A stretch of 64,000 bases of DNA from Haematococcus lacustris (taxonomy: Eukaryota; Chlorophyta; Chlorophyceae; Chlamydomonadales; Haematococcaceae), in contig JASKMD010000030.1 of the NCBI GenBank assembly GCA_030144725.1, positions 6,062,502-6,126,501 on the forward strand. The letters run 5' to 3'. The notes under the pieces were generated by a model. It was not told the origin of the DNA. It did not search any database and was given only the letters and a program-made list of their open reading frames with translations. Numbering within the stretch: the stretch's first letter is position 1; each line of letters opens with the position of its first letter. This document shows positions 16,513 to 60,193 of the stretch, piece after piece. The position numbers and the translations under genes were made by a program.

Positions 16513-16519
16513 CACCGTG

Positions 16520-17723
16520 TCAGGCCGCCCCAACATGGGGTTGGTAATATGCATGCAAGTACTCTCTCAATACTGCACCGTTTTCGACACCGTTCATCAC
16601 ATTGGCAGCTGCTATTCAGTCCGCGTCATCTGACCTTCAGCGCAAGCCATTGGAGTCTTTGCTCGCGTACTGCCACATGTGCCCGCGAACAAATCACAGC
16701 GGCGAGAAGGGTCTCCTTGGCACGGTGAGCCGCATCCCTGTGACCCCATCTAACTAGCGTAGTGAGTTGGTTGTGCACAAATGGAATGTCCGGCAAACAC
16801 CCATCGCGATGCCTGCCGGGCGTGCAGTGCGCCTAGACGGGGTGAATGAAACATAATAGATGTGCTCACTTCCGCCGAATACACCATTTGGGTCGGCGCA
16901 AACTAAGGTATCACCGGGTTGGACACCCCCCCTCCTCCACTGTGTCCTCCACTGTGTTGCACCCGTTGCACCCACAGGAAAACGGCCACAAAATGTTTGT
17001 TCTTGACCCCTTGGCGCATTTATTAGAACTCACCGCACGTTAAACAGCCCAGGCCTCTATCAGTTTGACATCTTCAAAGTGACATCATGTTCTCCAAGCA
17101 GAATCAGGGCTACGGGGCTGTGGGGTGGCAGTTGAGCTATGAAACTTTGCACGCAGGTGGATGGCATGTAGGGGAGTGTAACTCTTAGAGGAGCCCAGTC
17201 CAAATGACGTCATGGTGTAGAGTTGTGTGACTGACTGCATGGCCCTGGTCCTGAGATCGGGGGTCACCGACCAAAGTGAGCTTTTGACATATCTGAGTAT
17301 GAGCGTTTGTAGCAATGTCTGAGAGGAGCTTAACCTAGTAAATAGCATGCTGTAAGGCCAAATGGTCGAGCTGTGGCATTGCCCTCTAGGTATGGGGGGG
17401 AGGTGGGCTCATTGTCACATCGCCGCAACCGCTTTCCGATCCGACTGCTGCTGCCGATGCGCATGCTCGTGTAGAGCAGCCTAAGCGACGCGGGCGGTCG
17501 CAGCGAGGACTGCATGCTCCGCTACGGCTCAAATTTGAATCACTAACTTTGATGCTTTGCTGTGCACGGCCTACTGAGTGGACAATTCTATAAAGTGGGT
17601 GAAAGGTAGCTGGCTGGGTTGCCTACATTGTAAATCATCTAGCATAGTATTTGGCGCAGGGAGTGCAGAGTTACAGCCGTCCTACTACCAGGGGTAGGTT
17701 TTCTGTTAGTTGGGGTCCCCCGA
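16520..17723 (+). mobile_element. Non-autonomous 1.2-kb DNA transposon with 7-bp target duplication
   Basis: Left end TCAGGCCGCCCCAAC, right end complement TCGGGGGACCCCAAC (11 of 15 match). It is flanked by the 7-bp direct repeat CACCGTG at 16513-16519 and 17724-17730. Left subterminal CAACATGGGGTTGGTAAT and right subterminal GGTTTTCTGTTAGTTGGGG are shared with the transposons at 55421-59592 and 55468-58359. No transposase reading frame is visible, so it would depend on an autonomous relative. Confidence 0.85.
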
Positions 17724-17730
17724 CACCGTG

Positions 17731-55413: not shown

Positions 55414-55467
55414 CCTACCCTCAGGCGTTCCCAACTACCTGAAAACCACCCCCCTGTGATAGGAAGC

Positions 55468-58359
55468 TCAGGCGTCCCCAACATGGGGTTGGTAATCTTC
55501 ATGCAAGTACTCGCTACAAAGTGCACCGACTTCGGTAGCGTTTGTTGCATGGGCACCTGCGAATTACTCCGCATCTACTGGCAAGCGGCGCGTTAATCCT
55601 TGCATCAGAGTCCATGCCGGCGCAAGCGATCGCGAACACACCTCAGCTGCTCATTACCGATTGTTCTAGTGGTGAGTAGTGGCACCAATGAGGGAACTCC
55701 GCCTGGCATCCAGCCGGAAGTACAATCACATTTCACGCCCCGCGAGCCTCTTGTTGGTGCAGGCGGTGTTGGAGGGCTATCGCTGGGCATGTTATGTATC
55801 GACATTGCTGCAAACGCGGGAAATGTGCGTATCTCTCTCGCCAGTCACACAAGAAAAGGGACCCTCATCCACAAAACGGCATGTTGTGAGCTGACTATTG
55901 TGATTTTCCAGACTTTCGATACATAACTCTGTTCCTTACTCAACGTCACAACTGCTGGAGAAGAAAGCATGGCAATCAGTTGATCAGGCCTGCTTGAAAT
56001 GACATTGGCGTGACCCGACTTTGCCTTGCAGGAATGATTAGCCCATCCGACCCTGCCCACTGCGGCCCCCCCACCTCCCCAGCCCAGCATCGCCTTCCTA
56101 CCTCCGCTCACCCACTCCCAACCCCAGCCCGGCCCTCCAACCCCCCCTCCCACCCCCTCCCACCCCCTCCCAGCCCCCTCACTGCCCTCCCACCCTCGCC
56201 ACCCCCTCCCAACCTCAGCCCCGCACTCCACCCCCCCTCCCACCCCCTCCCAGCCCCCCCCTTGCCCTCCCACCCCCGCTACCCCCTCCCAACCCCAACC
56301 CCCACCTCCCACCCCCCTCCCACCCCCTCCCACCCCCCTCCCACCCCCTCCCAGCCCTCCCCCTGCCCTCCCACCCCTGCCAACCCCTTCCAATCCCAGC
56401 CCCCTCCTCCACCCACCTCCCCCTCCCTCCTTGTCCCGGCCCTAGCAAGCTATCTATAGGCTGGGCTGGGCTGGGCTGGGCTGGGCTGGGCTGGGCTGCA
56501 ATGTTGATCATGCTTTGTGCATGCAGATCAGCTACGACGAGCCGAAGGGATCCACGTGCAGTTTGATGGCTGCACATGCAAGAAGCATGGCAAGGTGCTC
56601 GTCATCAGAGTGACTGCTGCTGTGCCCAAGGGTGCAAGCCCCGTAACGGGTGCAGGTTCAGATTTGACAAGAGCAGCTGGCCAGCATCAGCGACTCACCG
56701 CCCAGATCACAGACGTGTTGGCCATCGTCCCCCTCCCTTGTGCCACAGCTGAGGCCCACGTCAAGGTCATCCTGCGCGAGCTTGAACGCAATGGTCTGCA
56801 GGGTGCCCGCATTGTTAGCATGACAGCGGACAGCGCATTTGTCAACATGGGGGGTCACAGCGGAGTGATCGCACAGCTCAATGATGTGCTCATGCCGTTG
56901 CAGAACACAGCCATCCGCGCACAGCCCTGCTACAGCCATGGCCTTCACAACACCCTCCTGGCAGGGTTGACAGCTCTAGGTGCCGGCATCAAGGCAGCAA
57001 TTGAGGACATAGCCAGCCTCTTGGCTCAGCATTGGGGTGAGCTAACCTTGGCTAGGTCAGGTGCCAAGCCTGAGACTCCTTGTGACACGCGGTGGGTTAG
57101 CTACACCACAGCTTCTGCATCGGTGCTCCGTGTATGGCGGCTTGCCGGGGAGGCTGTGGCACGTGTGGTGGAGGGCCAGAGGGAGCGGTCCCCACCCTGG
57201 GCGGTCACGCTCAGTGGCTACTTCAAGGACACTGACCTGCTGCTGAAGATTTGCGTGGTGGCGGTAGTGGGCATGTCTCTGCTTCAGCCGGAACTCCTGT
57301 GGGCAAGTCAGCATGATGGCTTGCATGCTTTCGAGCTGTACCGGCATACCCAAGATGTGCAGACCAGCTTATCACAGACGTGGACCAGCAGCTCGCAGCT
57401 CTTGTTAGACATGCGATGCCAGTTGCAGCACTTGGCGCCAGCTCAGCAGCGGCAGCAGCAGGAGCAACAACTGCTCGCCTACTTGCAGCTGCATTGCCAG
57501 GCCATGTCAAGCTACTACGAACAGCACGTCTTGAGGGATCATGAGGGCCAGCATAGACTTGCAGCAGCATATGCTCTGACCTATGATGGGCGCGATTACA
57601 GCCACACCACTGTCGAGGAGGCTAACAAGCTATCTGTCAGGGAGCTGCAAGCTTACCTTCGCTTCCACCAGCAGGAGGTCATGAAAGGGTGGTTGAAGCT
57701 CAAGCTGAAGGGTCTTGTCATGGCTCATGTTCGCAACACAGTAGCCGCCCTGCATGGGGATGAGCTGGGGGCAGCAGCAGGTGCTGGTGTGGGTGCCGCC
57801 CCTGACCCTCCCCCCCCTCCTGCTGCACCCCCCTGGCAGCAGCTGGCAGCAAGTGCTAGTGCAGCCCTAGGGTTGCTCACCCCTCCACTTGTTGCTGCAC
57901 CTGAGGAGCAGCAGGGGACAACAACGGAGATGAGCACGAGCTCGACACGCAAGCGCAAGGCGGGCATGAGGGATCGGACCCAACCTACCCAGCAAGGTAA
58001 CAAAGCAATGGCCTACACACCTTGTACTGCTCAGTTGCATCTGTTTGGCATGCCGTGATGACCGTTTTTTCTGCGGCGACTGTCCCTGACTGTTTGCAGG
58101 GGCTAATGGGCCACGTCGGTCGCGGCGGTCGATCGCGGCGAGGCCCGCATGAGCAATACACGCATGAATTTGAATGTTGATATTTGAGCCGCCAGTGCGC
58201 TCAACACAATGCACGGGAATTAGTTAAACACGCTTCACCCCGTAGCTGACAGAGTGCTCTATCCAGGGATGTGCGTAGCATAATTAGAGACCACGTGGCT
58301 GGGACGCGGCGTCGTTTTGATTACCAGGGGTTGGTTTTCTGTTAGTTGGGGACACCTGA
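55468..58359 (+). mobile_element. Inner, apparently complete DNA transposon (2.9 kb)
   Basis: Left end TCAGGCGTCCCCAAC and right end complement TCAGGTGTCCCCAAC differ at one of 15 positions. The 7-bp direct repeat AGGAAGC lies at 55461-55467 and 58360-58366. It sits inside the outer element close to that element's left end. It encodes a transposase in its own orientation (55615-58152), so it may be autonomous. Subterminal sequences are shared with the outer element and the 16520-17723 copy. Confidence 0.88.
55615..58152 (+). CDS. Transposase, RNase H-like/hAT-like fold suggested
   Basis: Would bind the element ends and catalyse excision and integration in the nucleus. Probable exons: 55615-55673 (MPAQAIANTPQLLITDCSS before GTGAGT), an intermediate exon within about 55680-55826, the main exon from the acceptor before 56523 to about 57993, and a last exon 58100-58152 (ANGPRRSRRSIAARPA, stop). 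Without the last splice the main frame stops at 58058. Motifs suggestive of hAT-type transposases: ARIVSMTADSAFVNMGG (possible catalytic Asp), QPCYSHGLHNTLLAGL and PCDTRWVSYTTASA. The C-terminal part (YLRFHQQEVMKGW, then STRKRKAG) is paralogous to the minus-strand remnant at 59183-58545. The 7-bp duplication is not the 8 bp typical of hAT, so the superfamily remains open. Confidence 0.75.
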
Positions 58360-58544
58360 AGGAAGCCCGTATCTCCGCAGCCACTCAGTGAAAATATATG
58401 TAAACAGTGCTTTAAACAGAGGAGACTCAAAGCTACGAGATGGCAGACGCAGCATAAACTGTCTCGCTCTCAGCGGTGCTCAGTGCCTGCCCAAAGATCG
58501 ACATTTGAATTCAAGCGATTTTGCCTCATGCGAGGCGCGCCACA

Positions 58545-59183
58545 CTAGCACGCTTCGCCACACCGTTGTTGCTGGCACCTGCAACGCAAAGCAGCAGTCG
58601 GAACATGATTTGCTTTTGGCATGTGGACGCGACGACGGCAGTCGTGACGACTGGATACCACTATCAGCTTTTGGAGCTGCTGCTGGCGCAAGTGCATTAC
58701 CGGCTGCTCTACTACGCTTAACAAGGTGCTAGGTGCAGTACGGTGTGGTGTCTCACCTTGCTTTGCTGCCCTCGACTTGTTAGCTGCAGGTGCCTCACGC
58801 TTACGTGACGTGCTTGCCGCTGCCAGCTGTTGCTGCTGCTGAGGGGGTGCACCAGCAGGCACAGCCAGCTCAGGGATGGTGCCTGCAGGTGTCAGCTGTT
58901 GCTGAGGGGGCGCAACTGCGGCGAGCTTCCCACGGATGTGGGTGCACACGTGGCTCTGTAGCTTGGGTACCCTCCAGCTCGTGTGTACCTCCTGCTTGTG
59001 AAACTGGAGGTAGGACTGAGGCTGCTTTTCTGTCAGCATGTGTACCTTGTAAGGGGTCAATCTTTTCACATACAAACCCAATGATTGAGTTTCATAGTAC
59101 CACGGACGCGTTAGTGAGTATGCTATAAAAAGTCTGTGTGAGGTCAGGCTGTTTGCAATGGTGCAAAACATAAAGCGGATCAT
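58545..59183 (-). pseudogene. C-terminal transposase remnant of the outer transposon
   Basis: Aligns with the end of the inner transposase: YLQFHKQEVHTSWRVPKLQ against YLRFHQQEVMKGWLKLKLK, and ASTSRKREAPAANKSRAAKQ against the Ser/Thr-Arg-Lys-rich tail. Both stop matching at the same Gln-Gly/Lys-Gln-Gly followed by a splice donor. The N-terminal two thirds and the presumed catalytic region are missing. The reading direction matches the minus orientation of the outer element. Confidence 0.7.
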
Positions 59184-59658
59184 AGCTGGAGGGGGTGACT
59201 AGTCCCTACTGTGCCGCCCACCATTACAGCGATACAGCGCTGCCACACACAGTTTCGAGTTTCTTCACATCCTCGCCAAGCGGCCTGCACCATCAGGAAG
59301 CTCGCGCAGCCATGTTTGCCGGACTTCAGTGGTGTGCGCCACCGACATGTCGTGCATCGCTAACGGATAGCCAAGGACGTAGCTTACCAGTGTAGCTAAC
59401 CACGGTCTGTAACTGGGACACATCCGGGGTCACATGTGGCTGCCCGCATCGAATGACTCCGATGGCAATTCCAGTCTTACACTAAACGCGCATTATCGCA
59501 TTGCAGCAGACGCAGCAAACGTTACATCAAATGATGGAGTCGATGGGCTGCACTTGCATGAAGATTACCAACCCCATGTTGGGAACGCCTGACCTACCCT
59601 ATGCATACTCTATCGCACACACATCTAAGGGGCAATCGCATTGTTTGTTTTATTTGGC

Positions 59659-60193
59659 TCATGGCATGATACACATGTCACTATCGTTGCCGCTGGTGCC
59701 GCCGCTGCCACTTCCGCAGCAGGCCTTTGCCGCGCATGAGCACCCACTCCTGGCCCACACCGCTTGGGTAGGCATGGCGGGGCGGCCCACCCAGCTGCTG
59801 AGCTCGTGAGGGTGGCCCGGCCCGGCCGCAATGCGGCGGATGTTTAGCGAGGCTGACACGTCCCGGTCGTAGAACCTGGGGCCTGTGCTTGTTGAGCACA
59901 TCAGGCACCGGATCCGGGATCGCGTCGCCATGCTGCGCACCGGACGTGCAAGGCGACATAGATCAATGCACATTTGTAAGATTGCCAAAGCAAGTGTTAC
60001 GCCAAGCCATGTTTAGTCTGAACCGGTGCTGCTTTGTGAGGTGCCATTCTACATCTATGTAATGACTCCACTCCTACAATGCACATGCACGTGGGGTCCC
60101 TCACCTGAAGAACTCTGCATGGCCTGCCACCACGTTGGTGCGGGCAGAGCTGACTTTGCTTGTGGTCACCCCAGCCATTGGCGGCACCCCTGA
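59659..60193 (-). pseudogene. Fanzor/TnpB-like C-terminal fragment
   Basis: Fanzors are eukaryotic relatives of TnpB, RuvC-type nucleases carried by transposons. Two exons join in phase: about 60192-60105 (GVPPMAGVTTSKVSSARTNV, then a GTGAGG donor) and 59951-59659. The second reads RIRCLMCSTSTGPRFYDRDV followed by SASLNIRRIAAGPG and a Gly/Ser-rich tail. C-x2-C followed by DRDV-x-A/S-x-x-NI is the pattern of the last zinc-ribbon cysteine pair and third RuvC acidic motif in TnpB/Fanzor proteins. The first cysteine pair and all upstream RuvC parts were not found, so this is probably a remnant. It lies 60 bases outside the outer transposon's target duplication. Confidence 0.5.

Follow-up and report, generated by a model that had tools for sequence, protein, structure and literature searches.

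The elements described here are best compared with hAT transposons and with a few other DNA transposons. Five residues of the D-D-RW-E set are named as essential in hAT transposases; in Hermes they are D180, D248, R318, W319 and E572, with 68 residues between the two aspartates, 71 from the second aspartate to the tryptophan and 324 to the glutamate, and the consensus of hAT terminal inverted repeats (TIRs) is [T/C]A[A/G]NG (PMC6027215). An N-terminal BED zinc finger is stated for all hAT transposases, and Hermes prefers 8-bp targets of the form nTnnnnAn (PMC10368747). Published exceptions to the 8-bp target-site duplication (TSD) of hAT are hAT5, hAT6 and hAT7, and TSDs of 7 bp are found in hAT7 from rust fungi and in Kyakuja (PMC12730594), which together with Zisupton has been reported in Chlamydomonas relatives (PMC8226300). 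Dada makes TSDs of 6-7 bp (PMC3706591), and 1360, of the P superfamily, makes 7-bp TSDs at the motif GTTNAAC (PMC3276498). Here we analyze a stretch of 64,000 nucleotides from the green alga Haematococcus lacustris (assembly GCA_030144725.1, contig JASKMD010000030.1, positions 6,062,502 to 6,126,501, forward strand; hereafter the window), which contains one transposon inside another. We consider it probable that both belong to one large hAT-like group of DNA transposons that move by cut and paste, that neither is autonomous, and that the younger inner element jumped into the older outer one.

The outer element is 4172 bp long, carries the same 15-bp sequence TCAGGCGTTCCCAAC at both termini and lies between two perfect 7-bp TSDs; with the inner element and one TSD subtracted, its length is 1273 bp. 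The inner element (2892 bp) has the opposite orientation, ends in TCAGGCGTCCCCAAC and TCAGGTGTCCCCAAC, which differ by 1 mismatch, and is also bounded by perfect 7-bp TSDs. An earlier note on this DNA had proposed the nesting, and the boundaries it gave for both elements hold to the base (Table 1). One end of each element, here called the A end (left in the inner element, right in the outer), continues into ATGGGGTTGGTAATCTTCATGCAA beyond the 15 bp, and the two A ends are identical at 40 of 41 bp. The other ends, called B ends, diverge past the first 15 bp, with TAACAGAAAACC in the inner and TACCTGAAAACC in the outer element. Exact TCAGGYGTYCCCAAC is present in the window at these four ends only. 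The window contains 11 matches to it at up to 3 mismatches, and the shuffled window gives a mean of 8.4 matches, so that this number per se is not unusual. A pair of flanks would match at 7 of 7 positions by chance with p ~8.7e-5, given the composition of the window. We note that the outer TSD is part of a local CCCTACCCTACCC repeat and is therefore, by itself, weaker evidence than the inner TSD.

The order of the two insertions can be read from a relative of the outer type, L069 (TSD ATACCAG), which runs continuously through the point of the inner insertion and contains AGGAAGC once. This is the arrangement expected of the outer element before the inner one landed, and removal of the inner copy and one duplication from the window gives the same arrangement, as the earlier note had anticipated. 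The copy nearest to the inner element is 97.7% identical over 1,076 bp (up to 99% over ~560 bp of its right part), and the copy nearest to the outer interior is 96.1% identical over 568 bp; these values are in line with a younger inner copy but apply among the genomic copies compared and do not date the insertions.

The ends are shared by many copies in the genome, as had been supposed. The A end (30 bp) has 1,766 + 1,863 = 3,629 matches at up to 3 mismatches in 308 Mb, with 0 for the reversed control, and the outer-type B end has 409 + 414 = 823 matches at up to 1 mismatch, again with 0 for the control. In a first sample of elements with both ends, perfect 7-bp TSDs flank 18/25; one more has a 7-bp TSD with one mismatch, one has an 8-bp TSD and five have none. 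For this sample 67 of 75 loci were examined, L001-L008 being skipped (L001 is the window's own copy, and the others overlap later loci). No A-B pair came from 42 of the 67, many of them short with a single end, and 25 loci gave 28 pairs, of which three were dropped: a mispaired one of L018 and, for L029, both a duplicate copy and a pair wrongly drawn across tandem copies. Similarity to the window elements had supplied 23 of the loci, and a list of end patterns the other two (L066 and L069).

A second, positional sample was drawn from exact ends: 38 elements were paired by eye using the first 100 ends of each type, A and B (one pair spans 7.8 kb), and 16 of them were read, with an L097 flank without a partner left unused. 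Perfect 7-bp TSDs were found in 12/16. Among the other four, the element at C2:3266914 has an 8-bp TSD with one mismatch, those at C2:1464196 (5.6 kb) and C2:6241138 (7.8 kb) have none, and the one at C1:3927111 has none when its closer A end is used; pairing it instead with the more distant A end in L050 gives CCCCTAG on both sides, a re-pairing that was done afterwards and is excluded from the 12/16. The earlier note had named copies with other boundaries or without direct repeats as the pattern that would speak against it; both samples show the opposite, most elements having perfect 7-bp TSDs. The terminal base is T at 35/36 termini of 18 elements, in agreement with the T...A terminal pair it had described. 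The 7-bp length of the duplications also stands; taken alone, it does not set the elements apart, given the precedents of hAT7 and Kyakuja (PMC12730594), 1360 (PMC3276498) and Dada (PMC3706591).

Elements of the group sometimes abut or nest one another. At C22:12167497-12167560 only 7 bp separate a B end from an A end, L050 has two A ends, L018 (2942) has back-to-back ends, and L029 includes a tandem duplicate. Transposable elements account for 50.8% of the genome of H. pluvialis SAG 192.80 (PMC10400597).

Table 1 Features of the nested elements and of a third member of their group (positions in the window)
Feature	Position	Strand	Remark
Outer TSD, left copy	55414..55420	.	CCTACCC
Outer transposon, interrupted	55421..59592	-	subfamily with B end TCAGGCGTTCCCAACTACCTG; strand is direction of transposase remnant
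Outer left TIR	55421..55435	+	B end
Inner TSD, left copy	55461..55467	.	AGGAAGC
Inner transposon, internally deleted, non-autonomous	55468..58359	+	
Inner left TIR	55468..55482	+	A end, then ATGGGGTTGGTAATC
Inner transposase remnant, first block	56508..57536	+	main-exon codons 1-347: D1, D2, CxxH and RW motifs
Inner transposase remnant, second block	57537..58058	+	starts at ~codon 545 of main exon
Inner right TIR	58345..58359	-	B end, TCAGGTGTCCCCAAC then TAACAGAAAACC
Inner TSD, right copy	58360..58366	.	AGGAAGC
Outer transposase remnant	58545..59183	-	open reading frame (ORF) of 212 aa
Outer right TIR	59578..59592	-	A end
Outer TSD, right copy	59593..59599	.	CCTACCC
Third element, 1204 bp, diverged ends	16520..17723	+	CACCGTG at 16513-16519 and 17724-17730

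To describe the target sites, we collected 33 TSDs: 18 from the first sample, 11 more from the positional sample, which has L069 in common with the first, one from the re-paired element and three from the window. All 33 differ from one another, and they show a tendency toward C-T-N-N-N-A-G (C1 20/33, T2 17/33, A6 19/33, G7 21/33), with p from 2e-4 to 1.6e-6 (3e-5 for T2, 1.6e-6 for A6), uncorrected and relative to the window composition. The pattern amounts to nTnnnAn over 7 bp and is the 7-bp counterpart of nTnnnnAn in Hermes (PMC10368747). Such a palindromic motif supports strand transfer with two-fold symmetry.

Two elements are putatively autonomous: L034 (4,615 bp, TSD CTGTGGG) and L045 (4,775 bp, TSD CTCGAGG). 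Their main transposase exons are open over 754 and 885 codons, respectively. An upstream frame opens with MGRSRR.. or MVHSRQ.. and contains a coiled-coil-like stretch. GGCTG repeats, bounded by putative GT..AG sites, separate it from the main exon, and the gene is probably spliced. In these long copies and related loci the putative intron consists of a GGCTG-type tandem repeat, which reads GLGWAGLGWA in frame. The main exon contains, in L034 numbering, FDGCTC (D20), TADSASVN (D112), CYSH, CDTRW (R199 W200) and SNAPVES (E459), motifs that were assigned by eye and not by profile. The catalytic D, D and E and the RW dyad that characterize hAT transposases are thus found in order in both L034 and L045, at distances of 89-92 residues from D1 to D2, 33 from D2 to C, 88 from D2 to W and 347-350 from D2 to E. 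FDGCTC, TADSA and CDTRW are also present in outer-type copies, as far as the fragments extend, and SNxxVES in the more distant copy L064.

The genome also contains stop-free frames 53-55% identical to the L034 protein (63 of 22,753 candidates were scored). The outer-type element C22:619565-623563 (TSD ATGTAAC), whose A and B ends are both exact, holds a match that is 54% identical to the inner-type transposase within an open frame of 984 codons, which ties both subfamilies to related transposases and the same 7-bp TSD. Related transposase frames lie within elements of the same ends and TSD. The earlier note took the inner and outer elements for one family; on the predicted proteins they are instead two related subfamilies, with transposases ~54% identical, a common A end and different sequences inside the other end. 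The A end is thus nearly constant despite this divergence of the transposase, and the B end varies. Exchange of ends or cross-mobilization could explain this combination.

Both copies in the window are defective. In the inner element, nothing but the repeat stretch matches the first-exon frame, and main-exon codons ~348-544, including the predicted catalytic E, are absent. The outer element retains only a C-terminal remnant, of which the part at 58866-59171 aligns with residues 540-658 in the main exon of L045 (29% identity, E 7e-7). Both copies would need a transposase supplied from elsewhere. We suggest that a transposase of ~1,000 aa, encoded by putatively autonomous copies of 4 to 4.8 kb, would bind the constant A end and also the short repeat found at either terminus, excise the element and insert it with a stagger of 7 bp into a palindromic target resembling C-T-N-N-N-A-G, and that gap repair of the staggered target would then leave the 7-bp TSD. 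The chemistry would be that of an RNase-H-fold, hAT-like enzyme, presumably with a hairpin on the flank, and the two window copies would have been mobilized in trans. The group may still be mobile or may have been so until recently.

As a model for the working of the group, hAT fits best, on the basis of the motif set, the distances between the motifs, the short TIRs and the dissimilarity of the two ends; SNAPVES also resembles by eye a conserved block of the hAT C-terminal dimerization domain. The main uncertainty is the superfamily placement, and several observations weigh against a hAT-like assignment or against a uniform 7-bp TSD. The full exons and nine family pieces match no Pfam hAT model at E <=10, and the window ORFs match none at E <=1; in none of these Pfam scans did any transposase model match, and PDB sequence and profile searches matched no solved hAT or other transposase. 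This is so although canonical hAT dimerization domains elsewhere in the genome reach scores of up to 57 bits, and two family profiles aligned with hhalign to one canonical hAT fragment gave a probability of 0.2. No BED finger was found in the exons scanned with Pfam, although an undetected exon further upstream is possible; the first coding exon is coiled-coil-like, without a BED match. The window TSDs CCTACCC, AGGAAGC and CACCGTG are among the 8/33 with neither T2 nor A6, and to these are added the exceptions in both samples, that is, the five elements without a TSD and the one with an 8-bp TSD in the first and the 4/16 in the second. The group ends start with TCAGG, and from the second base the window elements read CAGGC, CAGGT or CGGGG, so that the hAT consensus is missed both ways. 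Because Pfam models of hAT, P and KDZ and solved transposases all fail to match, no BED finger is detected, the TSD has 7 bp and the ends depart from the TIR consensus, we do not file the group as a member of hAT.

Canonical hAT dimerization domains are also abundant in this genome. In a genome scan with PF05699, 150 of 673 candidates were scored and all 150 exceeded the Pfam cut-off; in a comparison by eye, none of these 150 overlaps a listed transposase place of the group. A canonical hAT fragment chosen for its position near an A-end element (L077) has no detectable similarity to the group's transposase. Other candidates were rejected. Lamprin matches above the cut-off on first-exon frames are false, as these frames read into the GLGWA repeat intron; a CENP-F leucine-zipper match on the L034 first exon (1.7e-4, below its cut-off) indicates a coiled coil and nothing more; a dynein coiled-coil match on one family piece (0.0083) is weak and unrelated, and others are weaker; and a PPR-DYW match in PDB (1.3e-5) was judged an effect of repeats or composition. 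A scan of viral contigs confirmed no relative: four stretches fitted a pattern, none of them by tblastn. An AlphaFold model of the window's transposase fragment, made without an alignment, reached a pLDDT of 39 and was not used.

It is unlikely, in our view, that the group forms a separate superfamily or is related to KDZ or Dada, as a DDE lineage without a curated model. In favor of this, 24,736 Pfam models gave only weak, unrelated matches to the main exons and family pieces (best 0.0083), and Kyakuja (PMC12730594) and Dada (PMC3706591) have TSDs of 7 bp and 6-7 bp. However, the order D-D-CxxH-RW-E is the hAT set, the exons scanned contain no KDZ match in Pfam, Kyakuja has CA..TG termini and no TIRs (PMC12730594), which the algal group has, and Dada targets snRNA or tRNA genes (PMC3706591), at odds with 33 TSDs that are all different. 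As a tentative proposal, possible rather than probable, the group may be a separate green-algal DDE lineage at the superfamily level, marked by a 7-bp TSD, a terminal T, a coiled-coil N-terminus in place of BED and a constant A end with a variable B end. If so, the 7-bp stagger would have arisen independently of fungal hAT7, and, with ends kept or exchanged across subfamilies, one transposase could mobilize several of them.

A relationship with the P superfamily, in which the transposase would belong with P, 1360 and Galileo, seems to us quite improbable. P, 1360 and Galileo have 7- or 8-bp TSDs at palindromic sites (7 bp in Galileo), and P has a leucine-zipper-like coiled coil near its N-terminus; the first exon of the algal gene is coiled-coil-like as well. 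The CTNNNAG target has the same palindromic pattern as the GTTNAAC motif of 1360 with its 7-bp TSD (PMC3276498), and for this reason the motif does not separate hAT from P. P-type transposases have a THAP domain and an RNase H domain that carries a GTP-binding insertion, the latter a feature to be read from a structure. The exons and family pieces, however, have no P-type Pfam match at E <=10. Models of both P type and KDZ are present in the Pfam library scanned. The D2-E distance of the P element is ~230, and the catalytic-residue spacing of the algal group is unlike that of P; its RW dyad and D2-E distance of ~350 fit hAT. That a rearrangement brought the two elements together beside chance short repeats, with no insertion into an insertion, is highly improbable and was already disfavored: the outer TSD does sit in a short local CCTACCC repeat, but the TSDs of both elements have the genome-wide length, and L069 is unbroken at the insertion point with a single AGGAAGC.

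The window contains a third element of the group, with its A end at 16520 (TCAGGCCGCCCCAACATGGGG) and its B end at 17723; it is at most 91% identical to the compared genomic copies, over part of its length. Next to the outer element lies an ORF on the reverse strand (59659-59988) that reads ..TGPRFYDRDVSASLNIRRIAAG.., and neither this ORF nor a second one beside the element matches a Pfam family. By eye, TGPRFYDRDVSASLNIRRIAAG may resemble the C-terminal end of Fanzor/TnpB proteins. The window has no Rfam match at the gathering threshold.

A very abundant algal transposon group thus appears to have gone undescribed. We found no description of it in the open-access literature under its end sequences, Haematococcus transposons or 7-bp TSDs, and the available part of the H. 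pluvialis genome paper (PMC10400597) contains none. With it, a type of mobile element that is already known gains a large new lineage in algae, and its host, in which it is so abundant, is a red-pigmented alga grown for astaxanthin. The long open transposase frames in elements with intact ends may offer a candidate gene-tagging tool for this alga, and the group is one more example with which to ask what determines the stagger length at the target of hAT-like transposases.

Compared with known systems, the group shares with canonical hAT elements (Hermes, hobo, Ac) short TIRs, dissimilar subterminal regions, D-D-RW-E at similar spacing and an nTn..nAn palindromic target preference, the last a pattern that 1360 of the P superfamily shows as well. 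It differs from them in a TSD of 7 instead of 8 bp, an extra terminal T before CAGG, and the absence of a detected BED finger and Pfam hAT match. With hAT7 it shares cut-and-paste movement and the 7-bp TSD; hAT7 is classed as hAT by its transposase, which clusters with Ac/Tam3, whereas no hAT domain is detectable in the algal transposase, and 20 hAT7 families carry a TET/JBP gene (PMC12730594), for which the Pfam scan, covering the exons, gave no match in the algal group; this comparison is by description only. From 1360 and Galileo, which also have 7-bp TSDs, at a palindromic target in 1360 (PMC3276498), the group differs in having no P-type Pfam match. Dada shares the TSD length and a C/DxxH motif after the second D but inserts into snRNA and tRNA genes (PMC3706591), a common target that the 33 algal TSDs do not show. 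Kyakuja, of KDZ, shares the 7-bp TSD and has CA..TG termini without TIRs (PMC12730594), in contrast to the 15-bp TIRs of the algal elements.

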